Of a stretch of DNA of 34,596 nt, positions 1,336 to 15,287 are shown piece after piece (within the stretch, counting starts at the first letter, position 1; each line of letters begins with the position of its first letter). The translations under genes were made by a program, and so were the position numbers. Location: IMG/VR virus record IMGVR_UViG_3300033388_002434, positions 1 to 34,596 of that record, one strand, 5' to 3'. Under the pieces are notes generated by a model. That model searched no databases and had not been told where the DNA came from. It saw only the letters and a program-made list of their open reading frames with translations. Origin of the DNA: a virus.

Positions 1336-2034
1336 TTATAATTCACATTTTTGGCACACCGTAACCTGAACCCCAGCAAGGCCCTGAATTTCGTTCTTAA
1401 AATATTCTTCAGAGGAATTCCCGTCCGATAAGTGCAATAAAAAGATTTCTCTCAGATTGGTCGTATCGTTCGCTTTAATGATTTTTTTAACCGAATCGAG
1501 ACTTAAATGTGATTTTTTCAACCGGTGTTCTTGCGCTGGATTGATATCCGGATCCATGGTTTCCTGGCTGTAATTGCATTCAACAGCAAGGTAGGTAAGC
1601 CCGCGGAATCTATATTTGATATAATATGTATCAGTTGCAAACAAAAGTTTGTCTGGCCCATTTTGAATCAGATATCCGACAGGCTCGGCACAATCATGTT
1701 GCGTATCGAATGGCAGGATTGTCCATGGCCCGATTTTAAACTGTTTCAACGGCTCGATAATGCGGAGTCTATGGCCTTCAAGTTTCAAAGCCTCCGCCGT
1801 TCCTTTACTGCAATATAAATCAATACCGGCCTGCATAATCTTTTTTGCACTCTTGGCATGATCTAAATGCTCGTGAGTGAGTAAGCAGGCGTCAATTTCT
1901 GATAGCTTGAAATCAAGCGCCTGCCTGATCTTTTTAATTGGCAGGCCGCACTCTATCAGGAGAGAAGAGATTTCGCTGCTCACCCGATAAAGGTTGCCTG
2001 CACTGGAGGAGGCATATGGCTGGAAGGATATCAT
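1336..2034 (-). CDS. Metallo-beta-lactamase-fold hydrolase of the recombination cluster
   Basis: A 232-residue protein with the MBL signature THEHLDH at residues 53-59 (metal ligands His, His, Asp, His). Further likely ligands are an Asp in LLFATDT (about residue 132) and a His in FLLHLSDGN near residue 200. The fold is shared by RNase Z, SNM1/Pso2 and YycJ-type nucleases, so a DNA or RNA phosphodiesterase role is plausible, and its place directly after recT fits DNA-end processing. I start it at base 2034 (MISFQPYASS). The frame extends 27 codons further upstream but only by running into the recT gene. The start lies 1 base after the recT stop, suggesting coupled translation. Nuclease activity is inferred from family and context. 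Confidence 0.85.
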   Translation of the reverse strand: MISFQPYASSSAGNLYRVSSEISSLLIECGLPIKKIRQALDFKLSEIDACLLTHEHLDHAKSAKKIMQAGIDLYCSKGTAEALKLEGHRLRIIEPLKQFKIGPWTILPFDTQHDCAEPVGYLIQNGPDKLLFATDTYYIKYRFRGLTYLAVECNYSQETMDPDINPAQEHRLKKSHLSLDSVKKIIKANDTTNLREIFLLHLSDGNSSEEYFKNEIQGLAGVQVTVCQKCEL

Positions 2035-2035
2035 A

Positions 2036-2800: not shown

Positions 2801-2801
2801 G

Positions 2802-4709: not shown

Positions 4710-4957
4710 CTTCTCCCCTCATAATAATTTTTTTCATCAGCAAACGCCTGATTAACAGCGTCCTCGGCCCTCATTTTTTCAGAAAAATCTTTTTCATCGA
4801 TAGTCAAAAAAACCCCTTCTTTGCTATCCTCGCGATACGCATCAATTTCAATATCCCCATAAAATACTCGGATCGGGGTGTCTGCCATGCGTCTATATAC
4901 TTCACATAGAATAGCCTCGGTGATTAAAATTTTTGCATCTTCTGATAGTTTTTTCAT
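4706..4957 (-). CDS. Hypothetical early protein, 83 residues
   Basis: A small acidic protein beginning MKKLSEDAKILITEAILCEV. The start at 4957 is chosen because GGAGG lies 7 bases before it; an upstream in-frame ATG at 4978 would include that ribosome site. Its last codons overlap the ATPase start, again an ATGA coupling. Residues 1-30 look helical and residues 30-60 look like beta strands (VFYGDIEIDAY, GVFLTID). No family recognised. Position at the head of the leftward operon, directly before the ATPase, suggests early expression with the recombination genes. Confidence 0.6.
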   Translation of the reverse strand: MKKLSEDAKILITEAILCEVYRRMADTPIRVFYGDIEIDAYREDSKEGVFLTIDEKDFSEKMRAEDAVNQAFADEKNYYEGRR

Positions 4958-4961
4958 GCCT

Positions 4962-5168
4962 TTACCTCCAAATTTCATGATGCGTCATCCTCCAAGAACT
5001 GATCATAAAAATTATAACCCCTGCAATATTTCCCCAGGGCATCCACTCGCCATCTGATCCAGCCAGGAGTAGCCCGACCACCCACGCAATGCCAGTCGCA
5101 AATGTAGCGCAGGACACGCCAACAGATCGGCGTTTAAGAGTTTTATTAGCTAATAATTGTCGATCCAT
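4962..5168 (-). CDS. Small membrane protein with two predicted spans
   Basis: A 68-residue protein with two hydrophobic segments: about residues 20-37 (FATGIAWVVGLLLAG) and 46-59 (NIAGVIIFMISSW). The N-terminus is basic (LANKTLKRRS), so an N-in hairpin in the inner membrane is likely. Ribosome site GGAGG is 6 bases before the ATG. It is the first well-supported gene of the leftward operon. Two-span phage proteins can be holins or superinfection-exclusion proteins. The early position argues against a holin, but neither role can be shown from sequence. Confidence 0.6.
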   Translation of the reverse strand: MDRQLLANKTLKRRSVGVSCATFATGIAWVVGLLLAGSDGEWMPWGNIAGVIIFMISSWRMTHHEIWR

Positions 5169-5227
5169 TGGCGCCTCCGTTGCTTTTTTTTTAAGTGTAC
5201 TACACTATTCTTTGTCTTTGTTGCCAT
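5150..5227 (-). CDS. Possible basic leader peptide, 25 residues
   Basis: A 25-codon frame, MATKTKNSVVHLKKKQRRRQ and five more residues, with AGGAA 5 bases before its ATG. It overlaps the first 19 bases of the membrane-protein gene in another frame and spans that gene's ribosome site. It could be a small arginine-rich peptide, as for N-type antiterminators, or a coupling leader that opens the downstream start. Both readings are inference; the frame is short enough to arise by chance. Confidence 0.28.
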   Translation of the reverse strand: MATKTKNSVVHLKKKQRRRQWIDNY

Positions 5228-5432
5228 ATGTTCCTGTGCGGCTTCGCACTATATTTTAGTTGCTATCCATAGGCTTCTCCTTTTTTTATATGGGTTTAAA
5301 AAAATCAATCTTTTATTTTCTTTCCTCTGCCCTCCCGCCGCTACCCGATCAGGGGCGCTGCAAACGGTTGAGCTTGGCGTCGAGTGACCCCGGTTTCAAC
5401 GTTTCCGTCTCCGGCGGGGTATGCCCGACTTA
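5169..5432 (-). promoter_or_regulatory. Long GC-rich leader of the leftward operon
   Basis: About 260 bases lie between the predicted leftward transcription start (near 5432) and the first secure gene. Read leftward, the first 110 bases are GC-rich in an otherwise AT-rich region and can form hairpins. One closes ACCCCG (about 5415-5420) against CGGGGT (about 5385-5390). Another has CGC-CCC paired with GGG-GCG around 5340-5365. No run of U follows either hairpin, so they are not simple terminators. A 4-codon frame with a strong ribosome site (AAAGGAGAAG) lies near 5265-5285. Possible roles are antitermination (put- or nut-like) or mRNA stabilisation. Confidence 0.45.
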
Positions 5433-5438
5433 TGGTTG

Positions 5439-5467
5439 ATGTTACTGGATACCAGAAAAGATGTCAA
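5439..5467 (-). promoter_or_regulatory. Sigma70-type promoter of the leftward recombination operon
   Basis: Read leftward, a perfect -35 TTGACA (5462-5467) is followed by exactly 17 bases and a -10 TAACAT (5439-5444). The upstream 50 bases are AT-rich, consistent with an UP element. Transcription would start near 5432 and run through the ATPase, RecT and MBL genes. It diverges from the repressor promoters. Confidence 0.75.
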
Positions 5468-5486
5468 GCGCTATTTCAAAATAAAT

Positions 5487-5514
5487 TTGCATGTTGAATT
5501 TATATATATATATA
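5487..5514 (+). promoter_or_regulatory. Candidate upstream rightward promoter
   Basis: TTGCAT (5487-5492) followed after 16 bases by TATATA (5509-5514) inside a run of alternating TA. It would give the repressor message a leader of about 50 bases. The AT-repeat makes the -10 assignment ambiguous. Confidence 0.4.
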
Positions 5515-5538
5515 AGGATAGACTTCGTAAATTAATGA

Positions 5539-5567
5539 TTGCAAAAATAATTTGGTTAATTTATAGT
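5539..5567 (+). promoter_or_regulatory. Rightward promoter giving a leaderless repressor mRNA
   Basis: TTGCAA (5539-5544), exactly 17 bases, then TATAGT (5562-5567). A start 7 bases after the -10 falls on or next to the A of the ATG at 5574. There is no Shine-Dalgarno sequence before that ATG, which supports leaderless translation, as known for the lambda cI message made from PRM. Confidence 0.6.
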
Positions 5568-5573
5568 TAGAGC

Positions 5574-5768
5574 ATGGAAATAAATATTATTAAACTACAA
5601 CGAGAAATAAAAATGGCAGGGTATAAAAATAATGCTGAGTTTGCGGGCGCGGTGAATATTACGCGCCAGGCGCTCGACTTTATTTTTATGAGGAAAACTA
5701 CAACTTTTAAAACGCTCAGCAAAATATCTGAAGTGCTTGGGGTTGATGGAAAGGATTTATTAAAATGA
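5574..5768 (+). CDS. Small XRE/Cro-like HTH repressor
   Basis: A 64-residue protein that is almost entirely one helix-turn-helix domain of the lambda repressor/Cro type. The HTH spans about residues 20-42 (EFAGAVNITRQALDFIFMRK), followed by the usual support helix (TLSKISEVLGVDGKDLL). It lacks a C-terminal oligomerisation or peptidase domain, so it is Cro-sized rather than CI-sized. It is the first gene of the rightward early operon and sits beside two divergent promoters, whose operators it would be expected to bind. No ribosome site precedes it. Confidence 0.85.
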   Translation: MEINIIKLQREIKMAGYKNNAEFAGAVNITRQALDFIFMRKTTTFKTLSKISEVLGVDGKDLLK

Positions 5769-5781
5769 GCAGGAGAAAAAA

Positions 5782-5979
5782 ATGGAAAAATTCAAATCAT
5801 TTAACGACTGGTGGTCTGCGTATTGCAAAGTTTCATCGTTAAATAAAATCCACTTATCTTTTATAGATGTAGATATTTTAAGGAAAGAAATGGAGTTTGC
5901 GTTCAGTAGAACTTTACCAGTGAAAGGGGAAGAAAATGGCTGCAAGGCTGAAAGACATGACCGGAAAAACTTTCACTAA
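5782..5979 (+). CDS. Hypothetical early protein, 65 residues
   Basis: A short protein beginning MEKFKSFNDWWSAYCKVSSL, with an excellent ribosome site (AGGAGA, 6 bases before the ATG). It follows the repressor by 13 bases and overlaps the next gene by 44 bases in another frame; both have good ribosome sites. The C-terminal 15 residues (from EENGCKAERHD) are therefore read from DNA shared with the next gene. No family recognised. Confidence 0.6.
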   Translation: MEKFKSFNDWWSAYCKVSSLNKIHLSFIDVDILRKEMEFAFSRTLPVKGEENGCKAERHDRKNFH

Positions 5980-6571
5980 ATTGACAGTTATCTCCCGCGC
6001 TGAAAGCAGCACAAGCGGTGAAGCTAAGTGGTTCTGTGAATGCGAATGCGGCGGGACACGCATTGTAAGCGGAAACCAGCTTAGAAGGGGGGAGGCGCGA
6101 GATTGTGGCTGTGGGCGTGGGCGTAAGCGTGCAAGTAGGATGAGTAATTGGCCTCGTAGAACACGTCTAGTAAATAAAAAAATGGGGAGTAATTATTTAA
6201 CTCATAAAGAAATGTTATCGGCACTAGGCAAACAAGGAATGACTAGCGCTGAAATCGGGAAGCTATGTGAATGTAAAACGCAGACAGTTGCTAGCGCTAT
6301 GCACAGGGCAGGGATTAATCATCCAGCGCAACCACCTGCTTCAATTAAATCAAAGAAGCTGGTTATCCCTGCGGGCTTTAACGTAGCAGGGTATAAAGCT
6401 GGCGGATATAAGCGGCACTGCGATTTCTGCCCATGTGAGACACGAACAGATAAGAGATGTGAAACGTGTCTGCTCCGGAGCCGGGCTGCTGGCGATGGTG
6501 AAAAATCTATGTCTAGGCTTGGCGCGGATTTTATGAGTGAGGTTCAGGCTGCTTATGGAGGATGGGCATAA
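5936..6571 (+). CDS. Zinc-binding HTH protein, probable DNA-binding regulator
   Basis: A 211-residue protein in three parts. Residues 5-60 match the small zinc domain found at the N-terminus of phage AP2/HNH-type proteins: TGKTFTKLTVISRAE, then WFCECECGG, then DCGCG. Residues 85-125 contain a resolvase- or sigma-like HTH (MTSAEIGKLCECKTQTVASA). Residues 150-190 hold a second cysteine cluster (CDFCPCETRTDKRCETC). There is no HNH or AP2 catalytic core, so it is more likely a regulator than an endonuclease. A ribosome site AGGGGAAG precedes the ATG. It is the last gene before a strong terminator. An early or middle activator role is inferred. Confidence 0.65.
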   Translation: MAARLKDMTGKTFTKLTVISRAESSTSGEAKWFCECECGGTRIVSGNQLRRGEARDCGCGRGRKRASRMSNWPRRTRLVNKKMGSNYLTHKEMLSALGKQGMTSAEIGKLCECKTQTVASAMHRAGINHPAQPPASIKSKKLVIPAGFNVAGYKAGGYKRHCDFCPCETRTDKRCETCLLRSRAAGDGEKSMSRLGADFMSEVQAAYGGWA

Positions 6572-6601
6572 AAAAATAATCTGATCTGAAAAATAAATAT
6601 T

Positions 6602-6634
6602 AAAAAGGCGCAATTAAACATTGCGCCTTTTTTT
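6602..6634. terminator. Rho-independent terminator, probably bidirectional
   Basis: Perfect 8-base arms GGCGCAAT (6607-6614) and ATTGCGCC (6620-6627) around a TAAAC loop, followed by seven T and preceded by five A. It closes the repressor/regulator transcript and separates it from the promoter at 6638. Confidence 0.9.
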
Positions 6635-6637
6635 AGT

Positions 6638-6666
6638 TTGACATATATTTTTTTGTTTGGTATAGC
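6638..6666 (+). promoter_or_regulatory. Strong rightward promoter of the replication operon
   Basis: TTGACA (6638-6643), exactly 17 T-rich bases, then TATAGC (6661-6666). The -10 forms part of a 10-base palindrome TATAGCTATA (6661-6670), a possible operator. Its position just after a terminator marks a new transcription unit. Confidence 0.72.
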
Positions 6667-6703
6667 TATAGAGAAAGTTAACAATATAGAGAAAGAGGTT
6701 AAA

Positions 6704-6922
6704 ATGTATCATAAAGTAAAAGACGGACGAGGCCAACACATGAAGGCTATTAGGGCTGAAAATTTAAAAAAAATCATTGCTTGGATATCAAAAAACCCTG
6801 ATGCTAACGCAATGGAATGCTCAATCGGGACAGGGCTTTGCTATAGCACAACACGGTCGTTAATTAAAGAGCTGAAGGCAGGGGGTATAAAAGGTGAAAA
6901 AGAGCTTTATCCTTTACCATGA
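6704..6922 (+). CDS. Small HTH-like protein, 72 residues
   Basis: The frame from base 6704 begins MYHKVKDGRGQHMKAIRAEN, with GAGG 5 bases before the ATG. The apparent upstream extension to 6638 lies inside the promoter and is discarded. Residues 20-65 look like a winged-helix or HTH unit: AENLKKIIAWISKNPDAN, then SIGTGLCYSTTRSLIKELKA, resembling a recognition helix followed by a wing. It could be a replication or transcription regulator for the operon it heads. It overlaps the next gene by 29 bases. Confidence 0.6.
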   Translation: MYHKVKDGRGQHMKAIRAENLKKIIAWISKNPDANAMECSIGTGLCYSTTRSLIKELKAGGIKGEKELYPLP

Positions 6923-7154
6923 CCAGTTTGATGCGATAGAAGACTTGACCGTTGAGCAAAAAGGGAACCTTTTAAACGCTATATTTATATATAGTAGATG
7001 TGGCAAAATAAGCAATTTAGACCCAGTCGTTAATATGGCATTTAAGTTTTTTAGAGTTACGCTTGATAGGGACGCTGAAAAATGGAAACAGATAGCAGCA
7101 AGAAACAAAGAAAACGGCAAGAAAGGCGGGAGGCCAAAAACAAATAATGATTAA
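6894..7154 (+). CDS. DUF6291-like phage replication-region protein
   Basis: An 86-residue product starting at a GTG (MKKSFILYHDQFDAIEDLTV), with AGGGGG 8 bases upstream. The sequence follows the DUF6291 pattern I know from phages: an initial KKSFILY, then LTVEQKGNLLNAIFIY, MAFKFFRVTLDRDAEKWKQI, and a terminal RNKENGKKGGRPK. Family members usually continue well past GGRPK into a low-complexity Asn/Pro/Lys region. Here the frame stops, and that kind of region appears in the next frame. This may be the N-terminal part of a broken gene or one half of an overlapping pair. Confidence 0.7.
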   Translation: MKKSFILYHDQFDAIEDLTVEQKGNLLNAIFIYSRCGKISNLDPVVNMAFKFFRVTLDRDAEKWKQIAARNKENGKKGGRPKTNND

Positions 7155-7368
7155 ACCCAAAAATAACCCAGAAAACCCAGTGGGTTTTTTCGTAACCCAG
7201 AAAACCCAAGCGAACCCAGAAAACCCAAGCGAACCCGTTAGTGGTAGGGTTAATGTCAATGCCAATGTTTTTAAGCGAAAAAACCCTAACCAAAGAAAAG
7301 AATTTGATTATAACAGCATACTAGATATTAGGGGATTTTTAGAAAGCTGGAAATTTAGCAAACCCTGA
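7147..7368 (+). CDS. Low-complexity C-terminal continuation or overlapping gene
   Basis: A 73-residue frame, MIKPKNNPENPVGFFVTQ and onward, rich in Asn and Pro. It overlaps the end of the DUF6291-like frame by 8 bases. Its nearest ribosome site, GGGAGG, lies 13 bases upstream, longer than ideal. Composition and position match the tail normally fused to DUF6291 proteins, so it is probably part of the same ancestral gene, shifted +1. Removing one A from the run at 7136-7140 would join the two into a product of about 158 residues. The middle is built from direct repeats. Confidence 0.45.
   Translation: MIKPKNNPENPVGFFVTQKTQANPENPSEPVSGRVNVNANVFKRKNPNQRKEFDYNSILDIRGFLESWKFSKP
7165..7231 (+). repeat. 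Short direct repeats in the split replication gene
   Basis: The 15-mer AACCCAGAAAACCCA occurs three times, at 7165, 7194 and 7213. The last two belong to a perfect 19-base tandem repeat (unit ending AAGCG). Spacings of 29 and 19 are not multiples of three, so the repeats are read as NPENP, TQKTQ and NPENP in turn. Confidence 0.8.
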
Positions 7369-7543
7369 TATTTATCTCTGGTAAGGGGTTTAACAAACAT
7401 TTAAGCAGCATGTAGCAAAATGTTAGTAACCATATTTGGCAACTTTTATTAACTACTTTTTATTATAAAACCCGTCGTACCAAGCGTTTACGGGGATGTA
7501 AGTAAAGAAAATATTTTACTATGTATGTTCTATCGGGAGGTTT
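7369..7543. other. AT-rich intergenic gap before the helicase gene
   Basis: A 175-base, mostly AT-rich stretch without a convincing gene. It holds an imperfect inverted repeat near 7395-7425 (CATTT against AAATG) and a TTGGCA followed by TATTAT at a poor 19-base spacing. An origin or weak promoter is possible but not shown. Confidence 0.35.
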
Positions 7544-9070
7544 ATGTTAATTAAATTAAGGACATATCAGCTTGATGTTATTAAAAAAGTAAGAGATGAG
7601 CTCATAAACGGCAATAAGCGTCCGATTGTTGCCATGCCGACCGGAAGCGGGAAAAGCCCCACAATGTGCGAGATAATAAAAAGAGCTGTAAACAAAGGAA
7701 CTCGCGTTCTTTTTCTTGTACATAGGCGGAATCTTGTAACCCAGATAAACGACATGCTGGAAAAACATTATGGAATAACGCCCGGTATAATTATGAGCGG
7801 CCATGAGCTTGATCTTGATAATTCGGTTCAGCTTGCATCAATTCAAACATTTTCAAGAAGGGTTAAGTTAGAAAAACCGGAATATAATAAATTCGTTGTA
7901 GCAGCTGATTTAATTTTGATCGATGAAGGCCACCGCGCCGTAAGTAAGACGTATCAAGACGTTATAGATCTATACGAAGATAAAATAATAATAGGATTCA
8001 CAGCCACTCCAATAAAAGCAAATGGATGCGGCATGGGGATGGTATTTGATAGCCTTGTTGTTGGGCCCGAAGTCAGAGAATTGACAGAACTCGGGTATCT
8101 TTCGCCTGTCAGATACTTCGTTCCTGGCAAGATTGATCTTAACGGCGTGAAGGAGCTTGGAGGTGATTATCAGGCGGGGTCTCTTGAGAAAAAGATAAAC
8201 AAGAAAAAGCTCATAGGCGATATTGTAGAAAATTGGCTGAAACTTGCAGAGAATCGAAAAACTTTAGTCTATACCATAAACGTGAAGCATTCAATATCAT
8301 TATGCGAGGCTTTTCAATCAGCAGGGGTAAAAACAGCTAGGCTTGACGCAAAAAGTTCAGACGAAGAGCGGGATGATGTATTTCACGCAATGGAACGCGG
8401 TGATATTCAGGTTTTGATAAATGTTTTATTGTATGTCGAAGGCTTGGACGTACCTTCTATTTCTTGTATAGTATTTGCAAGACCGACCAAAAGCCTTGGA
8501 TTATATAGGCAAGCAGGCGGTCGCGGGCTGAGGGTTGAAGAAGGAAAAGAGAACCTAATTTTTATTGACCACGCGAATGTCGTAGAGGAACTTGGAACGC
8601 TCGACGAAGAAATAGAATGGACTCTCGACGGAAAAGAAAAGGCGTTTAAAAAACAAAAACGGGATGGTAAAGAAAAAAAATTATCTCAATGCAGTGTGTG
8701 TAAGGAGATATTTTCAGGGAGATTCACATGCCCACGATGTGGTACGCCTTTGAAAAGTTTTGGAAAATTGATTGAAACCGTTGACGCTGAATTGGTTGAG
8801 TTAAAAGCGAAGAAGAAAACGAATCTAGATATGTCATGGGCAGACAAGAGAAGATTTGTCGGAGCCCTTGAATGGCACGCGCAAAGTAAGGGGTATAAAC
8901 CAGGGTGGGTGTCGCATGCTTACAAAGACTATATGGGGGTTTGGAATAACGATCCGAGAGTCAAAAACGTTGGGCCAATAAAGCCAGAGGGGGAGGTAAA
9001 GAATTTATTAACCCATATGTTAATTAAGAAGGCTAAAGCATATCAGAAATCTAAAGGAGTGAGCGTATGA
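7544..9070 (+). CDS. SF2 DEAD/DEAH-type DNA helicase
   Basis: A 508-residue superfamily 2 helicase. The Q-motif-like start LRTYQLDVI is followed by Walker A MPTGSGKS (about 31-38), motif Ia VLFLVHRRNLV, motif II IDEGH (about 125-129), motif III GFTATP, motif V-like LLYVEGLDVP (about 297) and motif VI QAGGRGLR (about 324). After the second RecA lobe come two cysteine pairs, CSVC and CPRC (383-400), a probable zinc ribbon, then a unique C-terminal domain. Such proteins serve as phage replicative or branch-processing helicases. Ribosome site GGGAGG precedes the ATG. It overlaps the primase gene by ATGA, so the two are translationally coupled and probably act together. Confidence 0.9.
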   Translation: MLIKLRTYQLDVIKKVRDELINGNKRPIVAMPTGSGKSPTMCEIIKRAVNKGTRVLFLVHRRNLVTQINDMLEKHYGITPGIIMSGHELDLDNSVQLASIQTFSRRVKLEKPEYNKFVVAADLILIDEGHRAVSKTYQDVIDLYEDKIIIGFTATPIKANGCGMGMVFDSLVVGPEVRELTELGYLSPVRYFVPGKIDLNGVKELGGDYQAGSLEKKINKKKLIGDIVENWLKLAENRKTLVYTINVKHSISLCEAFQSAGVKTARLDAKSSDEERDDVFHAMERGDIQVLINVLLYVEGLDVPSISCIVFARPTKSLGLYRQAGGRGLRVEEGKENLIFIDHANVVEELGTLDEEIEWTLDGKEKAFKKQKRDGKEKKLSQCSVCKEIFSGRFTCPRCGTPLKSFGKLIETVDAELVELKAKKKTNLDMSWADKRRFVGALEWHAQSKGYKPGWVSHAYKDYMGVWNNDPRVKNVGPIKPEGEVKNLLTHMLIKKAKAYQKSKGVSV

Positions 9071-10014
9071 TAGACATAAAAGAGGAGACAACTGGACGCT
9101 GGCCCGGGATTTTTTCTGCGTTAGGGATAGAAGTTGGGCAATCTGGATGCCATACCGCATGCCCGATATGCCAGCCAGGAGAAAGCGGTTGTGATAGGTT
9201 CAGGATGGATGACAAAGATGGTTCAGGCTCGTGGATATGTAACAATTGCGGGGCAGGAGATGGATTCTCGTTGGTTATGAAGGTTCTAAGTATAGATTTC
9301 AAAGAAGCAGTTAAAGCGATCAGAGACGTTATCGGGGCATGTGATATGACAAAAACACAACCGGAACCAAAAATATCAAAAGAGCTACTTAGAAAAATTT
9401 ATATCGGATCAAAACCGGTTTACGCTGGAGACCCGGTATTTTGTTATCTTAAAAACCGTGGCCTTAAATTAACATCTGACAAATTAAGATATCATCCGGT
9501 ATGCTATGAACCCGAAACGCATTATAAAATGCCTGCTATGCTCGCCACCTTCGCATTGCCTGACGGGACAGCTATTACGATGCACAGAACTTTCCTAACG
9601 CAAAATGGCGATAAGGCCAGTATAAAAAATCCTAAAAAGGTTTTACCAGCGCTCCAGAGCATGGTTGGCGGCGCAATAAGGCTATATGAGCCGATAGATG
9701 GGGTAATCGGGATAGCTGAGGGTATAGAAACTGCTATGGCGTGTTATGAATTGAAAGGCATACCGACGTGGAGCGCTGTATCTAATACGATATTAGAAGG
9801 TTTTAAGCCGCCTAAAGGAATAAAATGCGTATTTATTTTTGGAGATAAAGATTTATCGTATACAGGGCAAAAATCAGCATATATATTAGCGAATAGATTG
9901 ACGGTGCAAAATAAGATTGACGTTGAAGTTTGTTTTCCTGATGAGAATGGGGATTTTTTAGATCAATTAAATCGTGAATCAGGCCCAGCTATTCAAAATG
10001 ATGTAGAGATATGA
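9067..10014 (+). CDS. Phage DNA primase with zinc finger and Toprim domain
   Basis: A 315-residue primase-like protein. The N-terminal zinc domain has C32-x2-C35 and C58-x2-C61 (SWICNNCGAGDGF), as in CHC2/gp4-type primases. The C-terminal half has Toprim motifs: the acidic IAEGIETAMA near 215-224 and IFGDKD near 257-262, where Asp-x-Asp binds metal. There is no P-loop helicase domain, unlike T7 gp4 or P4 alpha; the helicase is the separate gene just upstream. It would make RNA primers for replication of the phage genome. Its stop overlaps the ATG of a truncated downstream frame. Confidence 0.88.
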   Translation: MIDIKEETTGRWPGIFSALGIEVGQSGCHTACPICQPGESGCDRFRMDDKDGSGSWICNNCGAGDGFSLVMKVLSIDFKEAVKAIRDVIGACDMTKTQPEPKISKELLRKIYIGSKPVYAGDPVFCYLKNRGLKLTSDKLRYHPVCYEPETHYKMPAMLATFALPDGTAITMHRTFLTQNGDKASIKNPKKVLPALQSMVGGAIRLYEPIDGVIGIAEGIETAMACYELKGIPTWSAVSNTILEGFKPPKGIKCVFIFGDKDLSYTGQKSAYILANRLTVQNKIDVEVCFPDENGDFLDQLNRESGPAIQNDVEI

Positions 10015-10027
10015 AAAATCCAGTAAA
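10004..10027 (+). repeat. 24-base direct repeat, left copy
   Basis: Bases 10004-10027 are identical to 11064-11087. The repeat begins TAGAGATATGAAAA and covers a gene start in both places. The pair brackets the cassette-like segment. Confidence 0.9.
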
Positions 10028-10079
10028 CCGTTTTTTATACGAGAGGAGTAATAATGATAAATACAATGGAATTGCGTAA
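10011..10079 (+). pseudogene. Truncated 5' copy of the downstream TubC_N-like gene
   Basis: A 22-codon frame, MKNPVNRFLYERSNNDKYNG and two more residues, opening by ATGA overlap with the primase stop. The first six codons and 8 bases upstream are identical to the start of the gene at 11071, about 1060 bases away. After AGTAAA the two copies diverge but stay similar. It appears to be the gene start left behind when the intervening cassette-like DNA was inserted, or one unit of an older tandem duplication. Confidence 0.5.
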
Positions 10080-10422
10080 AGCTGGGCAAGCTATTTTTAT
10101 AGCTGTTGAAGAGCCTGTTGCAAAAGACATATCGAAAAAATTAATTGCAGCGGCAGACGAAATAGATGCATTAAGAGACTTTGCTATCTGGATGACCGCC
10201 TGCGAATATGATTTTTACAAAAGCTTTTATGAGGAAAATAGGGTCAGATTATTACAATATGAAAATTTGAGAAAACACTTTAGATTAATGGTTAACGATG
10301 TCCTCGGCAACGGTTATTATAATATGGCTATGGACGTGTACGAAGCTGATAGAATTTGTTGCAAAGATATTGTACGAATGGCTAATAGATCAGCAATAGA
10401 GAGACTGTTTCACACAGTATAA
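10054..10422 (+). CDS. Cassette-borne hypothetical protein, 122 residues
   Basis: Starts MINTMELRKAGQAIFIAVEE with AGGAG 5 bases before the ATG. The protein is mainly helical; residues 25-45 (KDISKKLIAAADEIDALRDF) resemble the amphipathic helices of small phage proteins, but I recognise no family. Its TAA stop lies inside the first attC-like site (10417-10477), the normal arrangement for an integron cassette gene. The DNA just before it (TTATACGAGAGGAG at 10035-10048) fits a cassette start. Cassettes are usually promoterless; here expression would come from the replication operon. Confidence 0.7.
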   Translation: MINTMELRKAGQAIFIAVEEPVAKDISKKLIAAADEIDALRDFAIWMTACEYDFYKSFYEENRVRLLQYENLRKHFRLMVNDVLGNGYYNMAMDVYEADRICCKDIVRMANRSAIERLFHTV

Positions 10423-10477
10423 CCCGCCACCGCACACGACCGCTGAATAGCGCGGCTTGTGAGCTTAGGCGTTATAT
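10417..10477 (+). other. attC: attC-like integron recombination site 1
   Basis: A 61-base imperfect palindrome. The left core GTATAAC (10417-10423) is complementary at 6 of 7 positions to the right core GTTATAT (10471-10477). Between them are imperfectly paired inner arms around GACCGCTGAATAGCGCGGC and the string GAGCTTA just before the right core. Length, core spacing and position immediately after a short gene agree with attC sites (59-base elements). It shares CGACCGCTGA, AGCG and GAGCTTA with site 2. Confidence 0.8.
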
Positions 10478-10487
10478 GCTCTTTAAA

Positions 10488-10712
10488 ATATGCGGGGATC
10501 GGAGTTGCCATCCGATCTTAGGGGAGCCTTGTGCGAGCAATAAATTCCGGATGCCACGTGAGAGCAGCCTCCCAACCAATATGGTTGAGTGCCAGGAGGG
10601 TAATGCGGCAAGCAAGCTTAGGTGACGAAGCATTTATGGGGGTGACCCTAACATCGAACAATCGGTGGTTGTTAGGTGAACTAAGGGTTGCGAAGATACC
10701 CCACCCGCATAT
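10488..10712 (+). ncRNA. Structured RNA element, possibly a standalone HEARO/omega RNA
   Basis: A 225-base segment closed by a perfect 9-base stem, ATATGCGGG (10488-10496) with CCCGCATAT (10704-10712). Inside are a 7-base hairpin GATCGGA/TCCGATC (10497-10517) with a GTTGCCA loop, a stem CCTCC/GGAGG (10568-10599) capped by CAACCA/TGGTTG, and a long hairpin CCTAACA/TGTTAGG (10647-10676). Around the last, GGGG (10639-10642) can pair with CCCC (10699-10702). Codon-like frames through it are composition artefacts. From memory, the GGGTGACC, GGTGAACTAAGGG and GCGAAGAT strings resemble HEARO RNAs, the guide RNAs of IscB/IsrB proteins, but I could not check this. No IscB, IsrB or TnpB gene is in the window. 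Confidence 0.65.
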
Positions 10713-10773
10713 AAACAGTTGCTCCAGCCGACCGCTGAGAAAAGCGGCGGGCGGCTGAGCTTAATCGTTAGAG
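10710..10773 (+). other. attC: attC-like integron recombination site 2
   Basis: The right half is classical: arms CAGCCG-A-CCGCT and AGCGG-CGGG-CGGCTG around a GAGAAA loop, the string GAGCTTAATC, then core GTTAGAG (10767-10773). A bulged base in GCTCCAGCCG versus its partner acts as the extrahelical base typical of attC. The left core is poor as it stands (TATAAAC); joining CTCT (10479-10482) to AAC (10714-10716) would restore CTCTAAC, the exact complement. This suggests the RNA element interrupts the site. Confidence 0.78.
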
Positions 10774-10780
10774 GGTGAAA

Positions 10781-11029
10781 ATGAAATTTGGAGATATTGT
10801 TATAAATGAATGGGCGGGAGGGCGAAATCCTCACAAGGTATTGATAGTCGTTCATCACGGCAGCAAAACAGTGAGGTGTTTATCGCTAACTGGCGAAGAG
10901 GTTTTATTCAGCAATGATAAAACCTTAAAGTTGACGAAAATCAGTTCAGTTGATTTTTCGGAGTGGGAAGCGATTGCATCTAACCAGTCGCTTGACTCTG
11001 ACGCCAAAAGCAGCAGGCCAACAAACTGA
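10781..11029 (+). CDS. Second cassette gene, small beta-rich hypothetical protein
   Basis: About 82 residues, starting MKFGDIVINEWAGGRNPHKV. The ATG at 10781 is preceded by AGAGG, which is the right core of attC site 2, so the recombination site also supplies the ribosome-binding site. A GTG at 10775 is a less likely start. The sequence reads as a run of beta strands (KVLIVVHHGSKTVRCLSL, EEVLFSNDKTLKLTKI), like a small SH3 or OB-type barrel. The last 15 codons run into what looks like the left half of a third attC, so the C-terminus may be an added read-through. No function recognised. Confidence 0.65.
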   Translation: MKFGDIVINEWAGGRNPHKVLIVVHHGSKTVRCLSLTGEEVLFSNDKTLKLTKISSVDFSEWEAIASNQSLDSDAKSSRPTN

Positions 11030-11036
11030 AACCGTC
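10978..11036 (+). other. Degenerate third attC-like site
   Basis: ATCTAAC (10978-10984) followed by CAGTCGCTTGACTCTGACGC looks like the left half of an attC, and it lies at the end of a short gene. The right half and a GTTAGAT core are missing; the sequence instead passes into phage DNA near 11037. It would mark the decayed end of the cassette array. Confidence 0.45.
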
Positions 11037-11063
11037 GTTTTTTAATAGGCGAGTCGGAGGATA

Positions 11064-11087
11064 TAGAGATATGAAAAATCCAGTAAA
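11064..11087 (+). repeat. 24-base direct repeat, right copy
   Basis: Identical to 10004-10027. This copy leads into the intact gene at 11071. In both copies the bases upstream of the ATG also include GAT(G/A)TAGAGAT, so the shared segment is slightly longer if one mismatch is allowed. Confidence 0.9.
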
Positions 11088-11382
11088 TTATCTGTTTTTA
11101 CGCGGCCTGTACGTCTATTTGCAGAACGATGTGGCCCGGATACACGGTATGGGCCGGATTTGTCCGGAACAAAGAGAGAAACTTCTCGAATATGCGAAAG
11201 CGTATAAGTCGGAAATTATCGAAACTTTGAGCCGGGAAATACCACGATGCCTTGGATTTGTTTGCGGTCATGTAGAATATCGAGAGGCTGATGAGATGCC
11301 GAATTGTTTGTGGTGCGGCAGGGCTGAGAAATTAGTATTTGATCTGGAGGAATGTCCTGAAGGGTATTGGAAAAAGGATTGA
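11071..11382 (+). CDS. TubC_N-like protein with C-terminal cysteine cluster
   Basis: A 103-residue protein. Residues 1-55 resemble the TubC N-terminal docking-like domain often found beside phage primases: MKNPVNYLFLRGLYVYLQND, then a central glycine, then CPEQREKLLEYAKAYKSEII. Residues 60-90 carry CLGFVCGH and CLWCG, a probable zinc site. GGAGG lies 12 bases before the ATG, longer than optimal. Without the cassette insert the gene would follow the primase directly, overlapping its stop by ATGA. It may assist the primase or helicase, but this is inferred from position. Confidence 0.65.
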   Translation: MKNPVNYLFLRGLYVYLQNDVARIHGMGRICPEQREKLLEYAKAYKSEIIETLSREIPRCLGFVCGHVEYREADEMPNCLWCGRAEKLVFDLEECPEGYWKKD

Positions 11383-11432
11383 GATTTTAAAAAAATATGG
11401 CGTTGCTGAAGAATTTAAAAAAAGAGGAAGTA

Positions 11433-11774
11433 ATGAATTATAAATTTTGCGGAAAAACATTGAACCTGGAACAAGAATATCGACGATTCAAAGTTCCCGC
11501 TTATTGTATGAAAGAGCTGTGCAGACTTTACGACGATAGCCGGAAGCTGTGGGCGTTTATCGGTGAAATTTACCCGCAGACAAAAGAATTTCGCGATGGT
11601 TGGAATTGGAAAATTGTGTTTCCTTCAGCATTTACCGCTGAAATTGTTGAAATTAAAAAATTAGATAAAGAAGGAGGAAAAAATGGAAAAAGCAGTAAGA
11701 AAAGCACTAAAATCCGAATTAAAACCAATCGAAAAAGCGCTTGCAAAAATACAGATTCGGCTGGATCGGCTTGA
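11433..11774 (+). CDS. Hypothetical replication-region protein, 113 residues
   Basis: Starts MNYKFCGKTLNLEQEYRRFK with GAGGAAG 5 bases before the ATG; an upstream start at 11397 is less well supported. Residues 1-80 form a compact domain with aromatic residues (WAFIGEIYP, DGWNWKIVFPS). From about residue 84 the protein becomes a Lys/Ser/Thr-rich tail that overlaps the next gene by 92 bases, so the tail may be a late addition. No family recognised. Confidence 0.6.
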   Translation: MNYKFCGKTLNLEQEYRRFKVPAYCMKELCRLYDDSRKLWAFIGEIYPQTKEFRDGWNWKIVFPSAFTAEIVEIKKLDKEGGKNGKSSKKSTKIRIKTNRKSACKNTDSAGSA

Positions 11775-11823
11775 AAACTTGGGGAAAAATCGGGCACAAT
11801 GGAATAGGGGAAAAAGATGTTAA
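11683..11823 (+). CDS. Small basic coiled-coil protein, 46 residues
   Basis: A frame with a strong ribosome site (GGAGG, 5 bases before the ATG) beginning MEKAVRKALKSELKPIEKAL. It is a single amphipathic helix (ALAKIQIRLDRLENLG) with net positive charge, ending GKNRAQWNRGKRC. It lies inside the end of the preceding gene in another frame and overlaps the resolvase start by 7 bases. The ribosome site and coding pattern make it likely to be expressed; function is unknown. Confidence 0.6.
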   Translation: MEKAVRKALKSELKPIEKALAKIQIRLDRLENLGKNRAQWNRGKRC

Positions 11824-12275
11824 TTTTTGGCATAGATACTGGGACCCGCACAGGTTGGAGCTTTTACGATTCAAAAAAACAGAAGGTGATTGAATCAGGC
11901 GTCATGGATTTTTCGAAAAAACGCGGTGAATCGAATGGTATGATGTTCCTAAGATTCAGGAAGTGGCTTAGAGATATGATTTTAGACTACGGCCCGGGGC
12001 TTATAGCGTATGAACAGGCCCATCATCGAGGCGGGGCGGCGACTGAAATCGGCGTAAATCTTACGGGCCGGGTACAGGAAGTTGCGGAAGAGTATGTAGT
12101 CCCGTGCGCGACCGTTCACACAGCGACTCTAAAAAAGTTCGCTACCGGGAAAGGCAATGCTGGAAAACTTGCTATGATCGAAGCAGCGAAGTCGTTTTTG
12201 GGGCGGGAGCCGATTGACGATAACGAGGCGGATGCTGTTCATATTTCGCGCTGGGCTGCGGAGGAATACGCATGA
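11817..12275 (+). CDS. RuvC-like Holliday junction resolvase
   Basis: A 152-residue RNase H-fold endonuclease. The motifs are FGIDTG with the catalytic Asp at residue 7, LIAYEQAHH with the Glu at about 66, and DDNEADAVHIS (about 134-144) supplying the last acidic pair. TGRVQEVAEEY and KKFATGKGNAGK match the conserved middle of phage RuvC-like proteins. Length is close to RuvC (about 170). It would cut four-way junctions and branched replication products before packaging, consistent with its position after the primase and helicase. The start overlaps the stop of the preceding small gene. Confidence 0.9.
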   Translation: MLIFGIDTGTRTGWSFYDSKKQKVIESGVMDFSKKRGESNGMMFLRFRKWLRDMILDYGPGLIAYEQAHHRGGAATEIGVNLTGRVQEVAEEYVVPCATVHTATLKKFATGKGNAGKLAMIEAAKSFLGREPIDDNEADAVHISRWAAEEYA

Positions 12276-12778
12276 AACTTATAATTATTAACGGACACAA
12301 TAAATCGGGCAAGAACACATTCGCGGATTTTATCGCTGAATACCACGATCCGACCGTGTGGCTTTCGAAAATTTGGAGCACTCAGATCCCGGCAATTGCG
12401 AGAGTAGCCGGGTGGGATAGTCAGAAAGATGAAAAAGGGCGGAGACTTTTATCTGATATTGAGGATGCGACAAATCGGTATAACGGTATGTCGTTCAATT
12501 CGATCTGCTTTCAAATAAACAAGTTTTCGAATGTCGTCGAGGATATATGGATTACGCTGATGTGTCGGAAGCCTGCTGAGATTAAAAAGTTTGTTGAGGC
12601 ATATCCTGGCCAGGCAACAACGGTTTTAATCCGGTCGGATCGGTCAAAACCGGCAAACAACCGGGCGGATCAGGGCGTTGAAGATTATTTGTATGATTGG
12701 ATTATTGAAAATAATGGTACGATTGATGAGTTTAAAAATAAGGTGTATTGGGTAGTAAAAGCGCTTGAAAACCAATAA
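12272..12778 (+). CDS. P-loop nucleotide kinase-like protein
   Basis: A 168-residue protein beginning with a P-loop, NGHNKSGKNTF (residues 7-17), a variant Walker A of the kind seen in phage deoxynucleotide monophosphate kinases. The remainder is compatible with a nucleoside-kinase fold, including an Arg-rich SDRSKPANNR in the region of a lid. A C-terminal IIENNGTIDEFKNKV matches the usual ending of such kinases (a base-recognition strand and helix). It likely phosphorylates dNMPs for phage DNA synthesis. Its ATG overlaps the resolvase stop (ATGA). The exact substrate cannot be read. Confidence 0.7.
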   Translation: MKLIIINGHNKSGKNTFADFIAEYHDPTVWLSKIWSTQIPAIARVAGWDSQKDEKGRRLLSDIEDATNRYNGMSFNSICFQINKFSNVVEDIWITLMCRKPAEIKKFVEAYPGQATTVLIRSDRSKPANNRADQGVEDYLYDWIIENNGTIDEFKNKVYWVVKALENQ

Positions 12779-12804
12779 ACAGAAAAACGAAAGACAATAG
12801 AGTT

Positions 12805-13089
12805 ATGAAAGAAACGGTGTGTTGCAATGGTGGTTGTGAGCGACAAGAAAAACATGTCGAGCTGAACAATGCAATAGATAGCATTGACCGAATTAATGAA
12901 CTTTTGAACGAATTAATCAGAAGAGTCCATCCGATGCCGGAAAGTAACGAAGAAAAAGCTTCGGAAGTAGCTGCCAAGCCGGTAATCCCATCATTATGCG
13001 ATGTATTGTCGCACGGCAGGGATCAAATTATGGATAAAATTGAATACGCCCATAACCAAATCAATGAACTTACAGAGCTTTTGTTTTAA
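12805..13089 (+). CDS. Hypothetical coiled-coil protein, 94 residues
   Basis: Begins MKETVCCNGGCERQEKHVEL. It has an N-terminal cysteine cluster (CCNGGC), then two amphipathic helices: NAIDSIDRINELLNELIRR and DKIEYAHNQINELTELLF, separated by a Glu/Ala linker. The ribosome site is weak (GAG 5 bases before the ATG). The heptad pattern suggests an oligomeric helical bundle. No family recognised. Confidence 0.5.
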   Translation: MKETVCCNGGCERQEKHVELNNAIDSIDRINELLNELIRRVHPMPESNEEKASEVAAKPVIPSLCDVLSHGRDQIMDKIEYAHNQINELTELLF

Positions 13090-13174
13090 ATTTTGTTAAA
13101 GGGCGGTAAATAGCTAAGCCTCTCTCGGTGGAGAGCGTTTAGTCTGGGCGAGTCTTGGCTGGGAAGGGTAATCA
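13090..13174 (+). other. Intergenic stretch with a short hairpin
   Basis: An 85-base gap with the hairpin CTCTC-GGTG-GAGAG near 13120-13136. No U run follows it. It separates two small genes in the rightward operon and may stabilise or process the message. Confidence 0.4.
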
Positions 13175-13372
13175 ATGGACGTAAAACTAAACGACGTAAA
13201 CGGTATGCCGCTGAACGACGGCGACACGGTAGAATTTCGAAAAGGCGCGAGAATGCAAAAAACAAAATTAAAATGGTCGGAGTCTTTGGGGGTTGTGATG
13301 TTGGCAACTGAACGGGGAATTGTGACCGGATGGTTGAGTGATATTGGGGCCGAAAACGTTCGAAGAATATGA
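13175..13372 (+). CDS. Small beta-rich hypothetical protein, 65 residues
   Basis: Starts MDVKLNDVNGMPLNDGDTVE with AAGGG 6 bases upstream of the ATG. The pattern of short strands (DTVEFRKG, KTKLKWSE, LGVVMLATERGIVTGWLSDI) resembles the small YopX- or SH3-like proteins common in phage early regions. It is the last rightward gene before the convergent accessory block. Function unknown. Confidence 0.6.
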   Translation: MDVKLNDVNGMPLNDGDTVEFRKGARMQKTKLKWSESLGVVMLATERGIVTGWLSDIGAENVRRI

Positions 13373-13382
13373 TTTAGATAGA

Positions 13383-13408
13383 AAAAAACCCCGGCTTTAG
13401 GGCCGGGG
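13383..13408 (-). terminator. Rho-independent terminator of the leftward accessory block
   Basis: Seven-base arms CCCCGGC (13389-13395) and GCCGGGG (13402-13408), with seven A before the left arm on the plus strand. Read leftward the stem is thus followed by seven U, a classical terminator. Read rightward the next T run is about 13 bases away, so it works poorly in that direction. Confidence 0.85.
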
Positions 13409-13416
13409 TGATAGCT

Positions 13417-13617
13417 TCATCTTTTTTTCCTCCATCCTGCCCGCCCGGGCTTTCGATCCCGGACGAGGTCAAGGTCTTTTTCGTCAATTATCCAGTTCCG
13501 GCCGAGTTTTACGGCCGGGAGCCTGCCATCTTTTGCCAGTCGTTGGACGATCCGGATTGATGTCCCGAGTTCGAGCGCTGCATCCGACGTTTCCATTTTC
13601 GTTCCGATCTTAACCAT
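13417..13617 (-). CDS. Excisionase/MerR-type helix-turn-helix protein
   Basis: A 66-residue winged-helix protein of the excisionase family: ETSDAALELGTSIRIVQRLA, then KDGRLPAVKLGRNWIIDEKD, with the basic tail RDRKPGRAGWRKKR. This is the pattern of small HTH_17-type proteins that bind DNA as Xis or as regulators. No integrase lies next to it, so a true excisionase function is uncertain. As the last gene of a self-contained leftward unit it could regulate that unit through the palindrome at 15223-15240. The start overlaps the preceding gene's stop by 8 bases. Confidence 0.8.
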   Translation of the reverse strand: MVKIGTKMETSDAALELGTSIRIVQRLAKDGRLPAVKLGRNWIIDEKDLDLVRDRKPGRAGWRKKR

Positions 13618-13867
13618 TTAAGCCCTCAATCTGATCCGGTCTGATGGTCCGCATTTCCCCGGTTGGCTCCATTGTATCCGGGTCGATCTCAAAATATGAG
13701 TTGTCCGCGTACTCAGGTCCAGCTGCCCGAAACAATTCTACAAACCTATCTCCGCTGCATGCTTCACGTGTGATTTTTGCTCGGATTGCCCTGGGCGTTT
13801 GTTTCCCGGTGTATATCTCGAAAGTTCCGCGTTCGCCTTCACCTGAGAAAATTATTAAGTTTTTCAT
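13610..13867 (-). CDS. Hypothetical protein, 85 residues
   Basis: Begins MKNLIIFSGEGERGTFEIYT with AAAGGG upstream of the ATG. It appears to be a mixed alpha/beta domain, ending in an acidic linker (FEIDPDTMEPTGEMRTIRPD). It lies in the leftward accessory block, overlapping the excisionase-like gene. No family recognised. Confidence 0.6.
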   Translation of the reverse strand: MKNLIIFSGEGERGTFEIYTGKQTPRAIRAKITREACSGDRFVELFRAAGPEYADNSYFEIDPDTMEPTGEMRTIRPDQIEGLNG

Positions 13868-13882
13868 GTTTTCCCTTTCTTT

Positions 13883-14083
13883 TTAATCAACATCAGTCCA
13901 TTTGCCATTTTTCTTGAAAGCCAGTTCAAGACCTGCTGGGGTTTCGATTGTCAGCACAGTCCCTTGGAATGCCTGCCCTGCGGTGGCCATCCGTTTTGCG
14001 GCTGTGAGGTTCTTCGTCCAGATGACCTGGCCGGTTCTGAGGCTTTGAAGATTTTGCCTTTCTGTTATGACGTATAATGTCAT
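13883..14083 (-). CDS. Hypothetical protein, 66 residues
   Basis: Start chosen at 14083 (MTLYVITERQNLQSLRTGQV), where AAAGGA lies 7 bases upstream; the longer frame from 14155 runs through a hairpin and the ribosome site. The sequence alternates strands and a helix (AAKRMATAGQAFQG, TVLTIETPAGLELAFKKNG). It belongs to the accessory block. Function unknown. Confidence 0.55.
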   Translation of the reverse strand: MTLYVITERQNLQSLRTGQVIWTKNLTAAKRMATAGQAFQGTVLTIETPAGLELAFKKNGKWTDVD

Positions 14084-14098
14084 GATTTTTCCTTTCCC

Positions 14099-14122
14099 CG
14101 GTTTGACCTCCCACCGGGAAGG
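14099..14122 (-). repeat. Intergenic hairpin repeat, copy 1
   Basis: Read leftward, CCCGGT and ACCGGG can pair around GGGAGGTCAA, upstream of the gene starting at 14083. The segment resembles the one at 14585-14609: both contain GGTCAAACCG and a C/G-rich block after CCTTCCC. Possible RNA processing or translation-control element. Confidence 0.5.
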
Positions 14123-14130
14123 ATTGAGCT

Positions 14131-14565
14131 CTAAAGGGGATTGTCTAAATCCCATTTGGGAACTGAGACACAGCCCCCTACCTCACCATCAGGACTAGTC
14201 CAGTACGCCCTAATAGTAACGTCGCCGATCGGGCCAGCAATTTTGAGAAACCCCTTTGCATTGAGTTCTCGCAGGAACTCAACGCTCTCTTCAAAAGAAC
14301 TACACGGCGCACCGACTAAACGCCGTTCCCTTTCAGCTATTTTAAAAAAGTTTTCACTATCGTTCGTCTCAGCCTTAAGGCTGGGACGGCTGGGACGGAT
14401 AGCATGGTCAACACACGTCCATGCATCACCGCATGGTAATCCAAAGTATTGGGCTGCCTTGTTTTCGCATACCCCGGCAACGAAATGCAAACAGTTGTCA
14501 CATGTACAATCATTGTCTCGATGCCGATTTAACTCTGCGTTTCTCTCTTCTGTGTTTTTCATCAT
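14131..14565 (-). CDS. Cysteine-rich hypothetical protein, 144 residues
   Basis: Strong ribosome site AGAGGAGA precedes the ATG pair at 14565/14562. Residues 18-52 hold a cysteine cluster (CTCDNCLHF, VCENKAA, LPCGDAWTC), likely zinc-binding. Residues 80-140 form a separate domain with FEESVEFLRELNAKGFLKIA. A long frame on the opposite strand covers the same DNA but has no ribosome site and conflicts with the promoter and terminator of this block. No family recognised. Confidence 0.65.
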   Translation of the reverse strand: MMKNTEERNAELNRHRDNDCTCDNCLHFVAGVCENKAAQYFGLPCGDAWTCVDHAIRPSRPSLKAETNDSENFFKIAERERRLVGAPCSSFEESVEFLRELNAKGFLKIAGPIGDVTIRAYWTSPDGEVGGCVSVPKWDLDNPL

Positions 14566-14584
14566 TTTTTTCTCCTCTTAGCTT

Positions 14585-14609
14585 ACGGTTTGACCCCCCC
14601 CGGGGGGAA
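14585..14609 (-). repeat. Intergenic hairpin repeat, copy 2
   Basis: CCCCCCCCGGGGGG lies within a segment similar to 14099-14122, again just upstream of a ribosome site in the leftward block. It could pair strongly with itself or form a stable structure in the message. Confidence 0.5.
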
Positions 14610-14621
14610 GGGTTGGTTGGG

Positions 14622-15173
14622 TTATTTGGATTCGATACTATCTTTGATAGCGTTATACATTTCGTACCAATCGAATTCTCCTTCTTCTATTGATTCTGCT
14701 ATCATTTCATCAGGACTTAATTTTCTACCATCTTCTGTGATCCACGCGTCTTTTTCATCGTCATATTTTGCCCACCCTTCCGCATACCAATCTTCATCGA
14801 TATTCCCACGGCCTGCGGTTTTGATAGTCGCGATTATCGCCCTGCCTTTTCCGCTTGGGCGTGTATTGCTTTCGTGGAATTCGAATGAACCGTCGTAGTA
14901 TATCCATACGCTCCCACTGCCTGAGAGTGCGAGAGTTTTCCGGAGTTCGATGAGGTCGATTTCTTCCATGATTTGATCGGTGAGTTTTTCCGGCGTCTGG
15001 GTCTCTTTCACGATTTTGCCGATCTCCATCTGAAAATCATAGTAACCTTGAGTGCCGTCGTATTCTGCCGGAAAATGATCTGCGACACATTGTTCAATTC
15101 TTTCGTCGCAGGGATCTGTAATTTCGTTGAGTTCGATCAATTTGATTATTTCGTCTCTGATTTCTTTTTTCAT
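14622..15173 (-). CDS. Acidic hypothetical protein, 183 residues
   Basis: The first gene of the leftward accessory block. GAGGAG lies 8 bases before the ATG. The protein is very acidic: residues 1-80 are helical (KKEIRDEIIKLIELNEITDP and onward) and residues 85-165 are rich in aromatic and acidic residues (VWIYYDGSFEFHES, DEDWYAEGWAKYDDEKDAWI). Very acidic early phage proteins can be DNA mimics that block host restriction or other DNA-binding proteins. That possibility rests on charge alone here. I do not recognise a family. Confidence 0.6.
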   Translation of the reverse strand: MKKEIRDEIIKLIELNEITDPCDERIEQCVADHFPAEYDGTQGYYDFQMEIGKIVKETQTPEKLTDQIMEEIDLIELRKTLALSGSGSVWIYYDGSFEFHESNTRPSGKGRAIIATIKTAGRGNIDEDWYAEGWAKYDDEKDAWITEDGRKLSPDEMIAESIEEGEFDWYEMYNAIKDSIESK

Positions 15174-15220
15174 TTTGCCTCTCCTCGGTTTGCGGTTATG
15201 TTTTCCTCACTCTTAAGTTC

Positions 15221-15249
15221 AATATACGCCTTGGCGTATAGTATGTCAA
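15221..15249 (-). promoter_or_regulatory. Promoter with palindromic operator for the accessory block
   Basis: Read leftward, TTGACA (15244-15249), exactly 17 bases, then TATATT (15221-15226), nearly full consensus. An 18-base inverted repeat TATACGCC-TT-GGCGTATA (15223-15240) covers part of the -10 and most of the spacer, an ideal position for a repressor. The -35 and 4 flanking bases (ATGTCAAGCG on the plus strand) are shared with the leftward promoter at 5439-5467. Confidence 0.85.
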
Positions 15250-15287
15250 GCGATATTTTAATAAAAAAGCATATTATTTGATTTATT

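Follow-up and report, generated by a model that had tools for sequence, protein, structure and literature searches.

An integrase-less array of attC-bearing cassettes in a phage replication operon, with signs of cassette turnover

Can the replication operon of a phage carry gene cassettes of the integron type, and how might such cassettes come and go between phages? The question is raised by the IMG/VR viral record IMGVR_UViG_3300033388_002434, whose entire 34,596 bases form the window analysed here. The window encodes a RecT-like annealing protein, an SbcC-like protein, a helicase, a DNA primase, a RuvC-like resolvase and a terminase, the last with about 57% identity to enterobacterial phages (the best among the matches listed from a collection of named phages). 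Behind the primase gene, a sequence-only reading had proposed an array of short cassettes, ending in attC sites and lacking an integrase. The features concerned are listed below, with scores from the attC covariance model (R1) described in the next paragraph.

2036-2815, minus strand: gene of the RecT-like annealing protein, a candidate agent for attC-attC exchange (phrog_148, E = 1.5e-70)
9067-10014, plus strand: DNA primase gene (Zn ribbon, Toprim), abutting the array upstream (PF08273, PF13362; phrog_510, E = 1.9e-61)
10000-10027, plus strand: left copy of a 28-nt direct repeat, containing the stop of the primase gene and the start of the following one (27 of 28 positions identical to 11060-11087)
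10028-10471, plus strand: cassette c1, left edge uncertain, with a gene at 10054-10422 for 122 aa (open reading frame; Vibrio phage homologs)
10417-10477, plus strand: attC1, cores GTATAAC and GTTATAT, crossover between G 10471 and T 10472 (R1, 24.8 bits, E = 1.8e-4)
10472-10767, plus strand: cassette c2, without a clear gene, possibly a structured RNA (RNA fold)
10709-10773, plus strand: attC2, crossover between G 10767 and T 10768 (R1, 17.9 bits, E = 0.012; fold)
10768-11040, plus strand: cassette c3, right edge uncertain, with a gene at 10775-11029 for 84 aa (open reading frame)
10978-11044, plus strand: what remains of a third attC, at most its left half, left core ATCTAAC at 10978-10984 (sequence)
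11060-11087, plus strand: right copy of the 28-nt direct repeat, through which the downstream gene regains its start (repeat comparison)
11071-11382, plus strand: downstream gene, 103 aa (open reading frame)

Because Rfam offered no useful match (of its four matches, three at chance level in 4,501 bases and one in 311 bases, none came near the gathering score), we built a covariance model of our own for attC. Class 1 integrons were located in plasmids with a known attC as query and sixteen attC sites were extracted, 13 of which (60-90 bases) make up R1 together with a hand-written structure of R-box and L-box; no phage sequence went into it. A search of both strands of the window with filters off returned 8 matches in total. 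The two best in the 34,596 bases are attC1 and attC2, followed by a match of 13.5 bits (166-109, minus strand) and one of 11.8 bits; the E-values of R1 are only rough, owing to a short calibration. An independent model thus places first and second the very sites proposed earlier at 10417-10477 and 10710-10773, the latter at 10709-10773.

How far these scores stand above background can be judged from three controls in other phage loci. R1 reached at most 11.9 bits in 56,470 bases (including L003-L005 and L008-L010) and at most 10.7 bits in a second set of 70,348 bases (including L047-L052); a third set, of 68,807 bases, contained an attC-like site of 20.4 bits in the contig L044, the next match being a short palindrome of 12.9 bits. 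Known attC sites of three types that had been left out of R1 scored 20.6 and 24.8 bits (two copies of arr-3), 43.6 and 53.2 bits, so that attC1 lies at the weak end of the held-out range and attC2 under it. The latter is also below 20 bits, a threshold which in PMC9892861 pertains to another model. A CALIN calls for two or more attC sites within some 3 kb; the window holds two and the array of a sister phage described below holds four, counted with R1 rather than with the model of IntegronFinder. A third, decayed site had been proposed from 10978; a good left core, ATCTAAC, is indeed there, but R1 gives no match at E up to 10 and the stretch has no fold, with 118 and 140 of 200 shuffles folding equally well on the two strands.

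The cargo of the array is partly of phage type. Homologs of the c1 protein occur in 4 Vibrio phage records (54-57% identity over 69-76 aa), and at the DNA level one Vibrio phage among the phage records resembles the c1 gene (70% over 140 bases); in these 4 records the R1 search gave nothing above 10.7 bits. The longest open reading frame of c2 spans 75 codons, a length reached by 117 of 2000 shuffles, and its GC content is higher than that of the surrounding DNA. Its predicted RNA fold, closed by a 9-bp helix, was equalled by 2 of 200 shuffles, and c2 is possibly a non-coding RNA cassette. A suspected resemblance of c2 to a fragment of a group II intron found no support in Rfam. Cassette c3 matched nothing in the phage and plasmid records and, of the viral contigs, the sister alone; the attC of c3 has lost its right half. 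Protein structure predictions for c1 and c3 were too poor for use (mean pLDDT 53.3 and 50.7). Compared with plasmids, the array DNA gave no meaningful match (1 record at E = 3), and we found no bacterial integron carrying these cassettes. All cassettes are oriented in the sense of the adjoining phage genes, so their expression would be possible without an integron promoter.

The most informative comparison is with a sister phage (L002, part of a 45,304-base record), which was found by a primase search and has the replication module in common with the window. The two match over window positions 373-14,123 at 98.2-99.9%, over 14,132-15,268 at 88-94% and over 34,256-34,596 at 89%; against the sister record (L021-L023) the window has no further DNA match at E = 1e-5, including the stretch from 15.3 to 34.2 kb. 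A near-identical module beside that unmatched stretch suggests that the replication module was recently exchanged between two phages. Around the array the likeness is closest: there are 3 differences in 1,900 bases on the left flank (window 8501-10400) and 3 in 3,687 on the right side (window 10414-14100), a fourth, at 10413, marking the junction. The sister is about 1,142 bases longer between c1 and c2, and this surplus holds two further cassettes.

L002 7403-7691, sister array: cassette X1, with a gene for 72 aa (without a Pfam match at E up to 5; in PHROGs nothing better than 0.1)
L002 7692-8547, sister array: cassette X2, with a gene for a 238-aa Rha-type phage regulator (PF09669, Phage_pRha, E = 2.7e-13; phrog_2657, E = 5.2e-34)

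Genes of the X2 type were found in 47 phage records, and the related loci L008-L010 show no R1 match above 11.9 bits. PADLOC returned one match, of X2 to PDC-S22 at 2e-6. Scans of the sister array for promoters (7 versus 6.5 expected by chance) and for terminators (1 versus 1.8) were both at chance. Applied to the whole sister record, R1 places the four cassette ends first, with 24.8, 22.4, 17.9 and 16.6 bits, the fifth match having 9.1 bits. The comparison with a related phage that the sequence-only reading had called for thus speaks in its favour: a sister that is near-identical on both sides differs by segments which end at attC sites. Elsewhere in the sister, a LAGLIDADG homing endonuclease region (PF14528, 2.8e-10; PF05204, 3e-6) lies in frame within the 854-aa terminase gene (L021 7629-10193, minus strand) and by these matches is probably an intein, and L022 13341-19739 (minus strand) encodes a 2,132-aa protein that, from its translation, looks like a multi-domain phage protein.

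The attC sequences themselves bear on how the two arrays came to differ. The site that follows c1 in the sister is not attC1 of the window; attC1 is instead the same as the sister's site behind X2, and the two sister copies (behind c1 and behind X2) are 86% identical over 57 nt. Had an integrase excised X1 and X2 in one step to give the window, c1's own site would be expected up to G|TT, and the window has the X2-type site from its 5' end. A one-step integrase insertion giving the sister should have left the window's site behind c1, where the sister's site is a different one. Given these sequences at the position behind c1, neither direction is a single integrase step, and homologous exchange between attC copies fits better, as the simpler reading of the difference. 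On the strength of this comparison, we take the pair as natural evidence for the gain or loss of cassettes between phages whose sequences hardly differ on either side of the array.

A second locus, near the start of the record and missed in the sequence-only reading, adds a different kind of junction. Its features are as follows.

1-114, minus strand: start of a further gene or cassette past Y1, broken by the contig end (sequence)
88-376, minus strand: candidate cassette Y1, with an open reading frame from 354 (88 aa), behind a phage gene at 776-387 (minus strand); homology with the sister ends near 377
109-166, minus strand: attC-like site of Y1 (third-ranking R1 match of the window, 13.5 bits, E = 0.18)

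At 13.5 bits, the Y1 site is barely over the best control palindrome (12.9 bits), and 45 of its 58 positions are as in the 20.4-bit site of L044. That site, at L044 630-687 (IMGVR_UViG_3300002180_000114), lies behind an 83-aa gene and is of the Y1-site type. A stretch of 50 residues of the Y1 gene product is 54% identical to the product of a gene in another viral contig. What the sister carries at this locus is the opening part of X1 in a second copy, identical at 84 of 87 nt; this copy starts exactly from the G of G|TT, has different DNA to its left and is truncated before any attC. To judge by its sequence, this junction is the kind of joint that an integron crossover produces. The genes past it in the sister give the impression, from their translations, of lysis genes. 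The rule of the G|TT joint is obeyed by X1 and its second-locus copy, and not by the difference between the two arrays. At the junction of the X1 copy an integrase step is supported; at that of the array it is ruled out as the sole cause. The idea that cassettes had moved between an integron and a phage is upheld in part: a cassette start occurs at two loci from an exact G|TT, but the bacterial integron that would have supplied these cassettes did not turn up.

Cassettes c1, X1 and X2, as well as the candidate Y1, are gene-then-attC units in one direction. Once a cassette is free and circular, its start is paired with the left core of its own attC. For X1, X2, c2, c3 and Y1, the true assignment of left cores to starts was the best of 120 permutations when a one-base bulge was allowed, the bulge having been chosen post hoc after c2. 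When no bulge was allowed, 5-9 of the 120 permutations equalled the true assignment at 7-9 bases and 20-22 did so at 10; with Y1 also left out, the counts were 5-8 of 24 at 7-9 bases and 15 of 24 at 10.

Single-strand folding gives a mixed picture of the sites. As single-stranded DNA, attC2 was equalled by 1 of 200 shuffles on the plus strand and 6 of 200 on the minus strand, while attC1 was equalled by 30 and 36 of 200 and is unremarkable, though its cores pair. The sister's c1 site was matched by 30 of 200 shuffles, its X1 site by 130 and the Y1 site by 5, so that among the predicted site folds those of attC2 and Y1 alone are better than most shuffles. Pairing of the cores is predicted for attC1, the sister's c1 site and Y1, and is absent in attC2 and the X1 site; in attC2 the outer bases of both cores are also unpaired in the R1 alignment. 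The bottom strands of two clinical attC sites fold at -18.8 and -19.0 kcal/mol, versus -11.9 for attC1 and -13.6 for attC2. The attC sites here score and fold more weakly than clinical ones.

The borders of the array may hint at how it entered the operon. Its 28-nt direct repeat, covering the stop of the primase gene and the start of the following one, also flanks the array of the sister, as though a duplication that made the next gene whole again had accompanied the array's arrival. The sequence-only reading had the array interrupting a primase gene followed directly by the next gene; the repeat agrees with this, but a relative with the empty site was not found. No junction lacking the array was seen among 3 loci of primase relatives besides the sister, nor at 6 loci with relatives of the downstream gene besides the sister, where matches span only 17-20 residues; the inspection covered the L003 sequence behind the primase and the open reading frames of L003 and L004. 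The label TubC_N-like, given earlier to the downstream gene, finds no backing in Pfam, where none of the families matched at E up to 10.

Neither of the two records, window and sister, both of which may be incomplete, has a recombinase match to PF00589 or PF00239 at E up to 1, and the sister record has none to TIGR02249. A complete integron requires intI, and a tyrosine recombinase match is lacking in both. Taking the R1 matches, the cassette anatomy, this lack of PF00589 and PF00239 and the two additional cassettes of the sister together, the integrase-less cassette array in a phage replication operon, as first proposed, is real. We consider it probable that this CALIN of a tailed phage, which sits in the replication operon and is accompanied by a second cassette site at the module's edge, was shaped by a host integrase in trans and by RecT-mediated exchange. 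Under this model, an integrase of a host integron, or of another element in the same cell, would act in trans on single-stranded DNA of the replicating phage and might insert cassettes at attC or at relaxed 5'-GNT-3' sites. PMC10127599 names 5'-GNT-3' as the conserved motif that intI1 requires, secondary sites being lax in the second base. The attC copies could then serve as short homologies for annealing recombination by the phage RecT, through which cassettes would be added or deleted. Since the cargo is partly phage-type (the Rha regulator, and c1 with its Vibrio phage homologs), the array may let related phages swap accessory genes. A bolder version, possible but in our view somewhat unlikely, is a phage lineage that uses integron cassettes for gene exchange from phage to phage, with attC-bearing accessory genes, capture by host integrases at attC or GNT in two places of the module, and turnover fast enough to differ between phages about 99.9% identical around these places.

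Much of the same evidence could be accommodated by a more passive history, in which a piece of a bacterial array entered once, by homologous or illegitimate recombination, no integrase acted since, and all later changes were ordinary recombination between repeats in phages. The direct repeat bounding the array, the decay of the third attC, the absence of an integrase match from the records and the RecT gene within the module all agree with such a history, as does the fact that window and sister differ within attC homology (86% over 57 nt), just where homologous exchange would act. A single passive entry, however, does not predict a copy of X1 that starts precisely at G|TT at a second locus, and cargo that is partly phage-type also speaks against it; we regard it as unlikely.

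More radical doubts concern the nature of the sites and of the contigs. If the sites were no more than palindromes between genes (terminators, for instance) and the cassettes were plain phage genes, the fold of attC1 (equalled by 30-36 of 200 shuffles) and scores under those of most known attC sites would come as no surprise. That a model of known attC sites has its best matches in both phages at cassette ends, and that the segments differing between the phages end at these same sites, makes such a coincidence very improbable. An assembly chimera of a phage with a bacterial cassette array has to be considered for the reason that both sequences are metagenome contigs; with c1, c2 and c3 lying within the same phage flanks in two separate records that have different structural genes, it is exceedingly improbable. 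We thus retain a CALIN that an integrase acting in trans and RecT-mediated exchange would probably have shaped.

How common such arrays are is a separate matter. A strict attC pattern hit the sister alone among IMG/VR contigs, near copies of the window possibly having been left out, and among GTDB genomes one stretch in one Dadabacteria contig, itself with only 7.7 bits under R1; a similar pattern was found in 1 of 57 genomes of that phylum, at this very site. As the patterns are very strict, these counts say little about prevalence. The contig in question (L012, from a Dadabacteria MAG) has attC-like sites at 5930-5873 and 3481-3359 on the minus strand (25.3 and 25.1 bits), apparently a bacterial attC cluster, along with two more matches of 8.4 and 7.7 bits at control level. 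The pair of window and sister suggests that phages take part in the trade of integron cassettes. If the changes were made by an integrase, phages would be active partners in the cassette pool, with cassettes carrying phage regulators besides bacterial genes. Natural uptake and loss of cassettes by phages also becomes testable, with metagenome reads or a simple laboratory assay.

Known systems place these findings in context. Phage morons are accessory genes that lie between the genes of a phage operon in the same sense; the units described here are alike in position and sense, and are bounded by attC recombination sites. The cassettes of class 1 integrons have the same anatomy of cores and L-box, the GTT crossover and a gene followed by attC in one direction, whereas the array here has weaker scores and folds, no integrase match, partly phage-type cargo and a decayed third attC. 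The closest counterparts are the phage CALINs of Qi et al. 2023 (PMC9892861), which in the sections consulted are likewise attC clusters in phage genomes without an integrase: the 10,705 genomes surveyed gave 17 CALINs (at least two attC, no integrase), IntI1 was active on 5 of the 6 virulent-phage attC sites that were assayed, and two of the virulent phages described have their cassettes in one direction. Sister phages that differ in their cassettes are not compared in these sections. With such CALINs already in print, the kind is known rather than new, and the rarity in phages asserted by the sequence-only reading was overstated. Among the papers listed from the open-licence literature, the titles and abstract openings yielded no other report on cassette content in sister phages. 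Compared with the CALINs described in those sections of PMC9892861, the present case, known from sequence alone, has a sister with two cassettes gained or lost, a cassette start at two loci and a cassette with a Rha regulator. What our analysis would add to the known systems are direct signs, drawn from the comparison of two records, of cassette turnover among phages.
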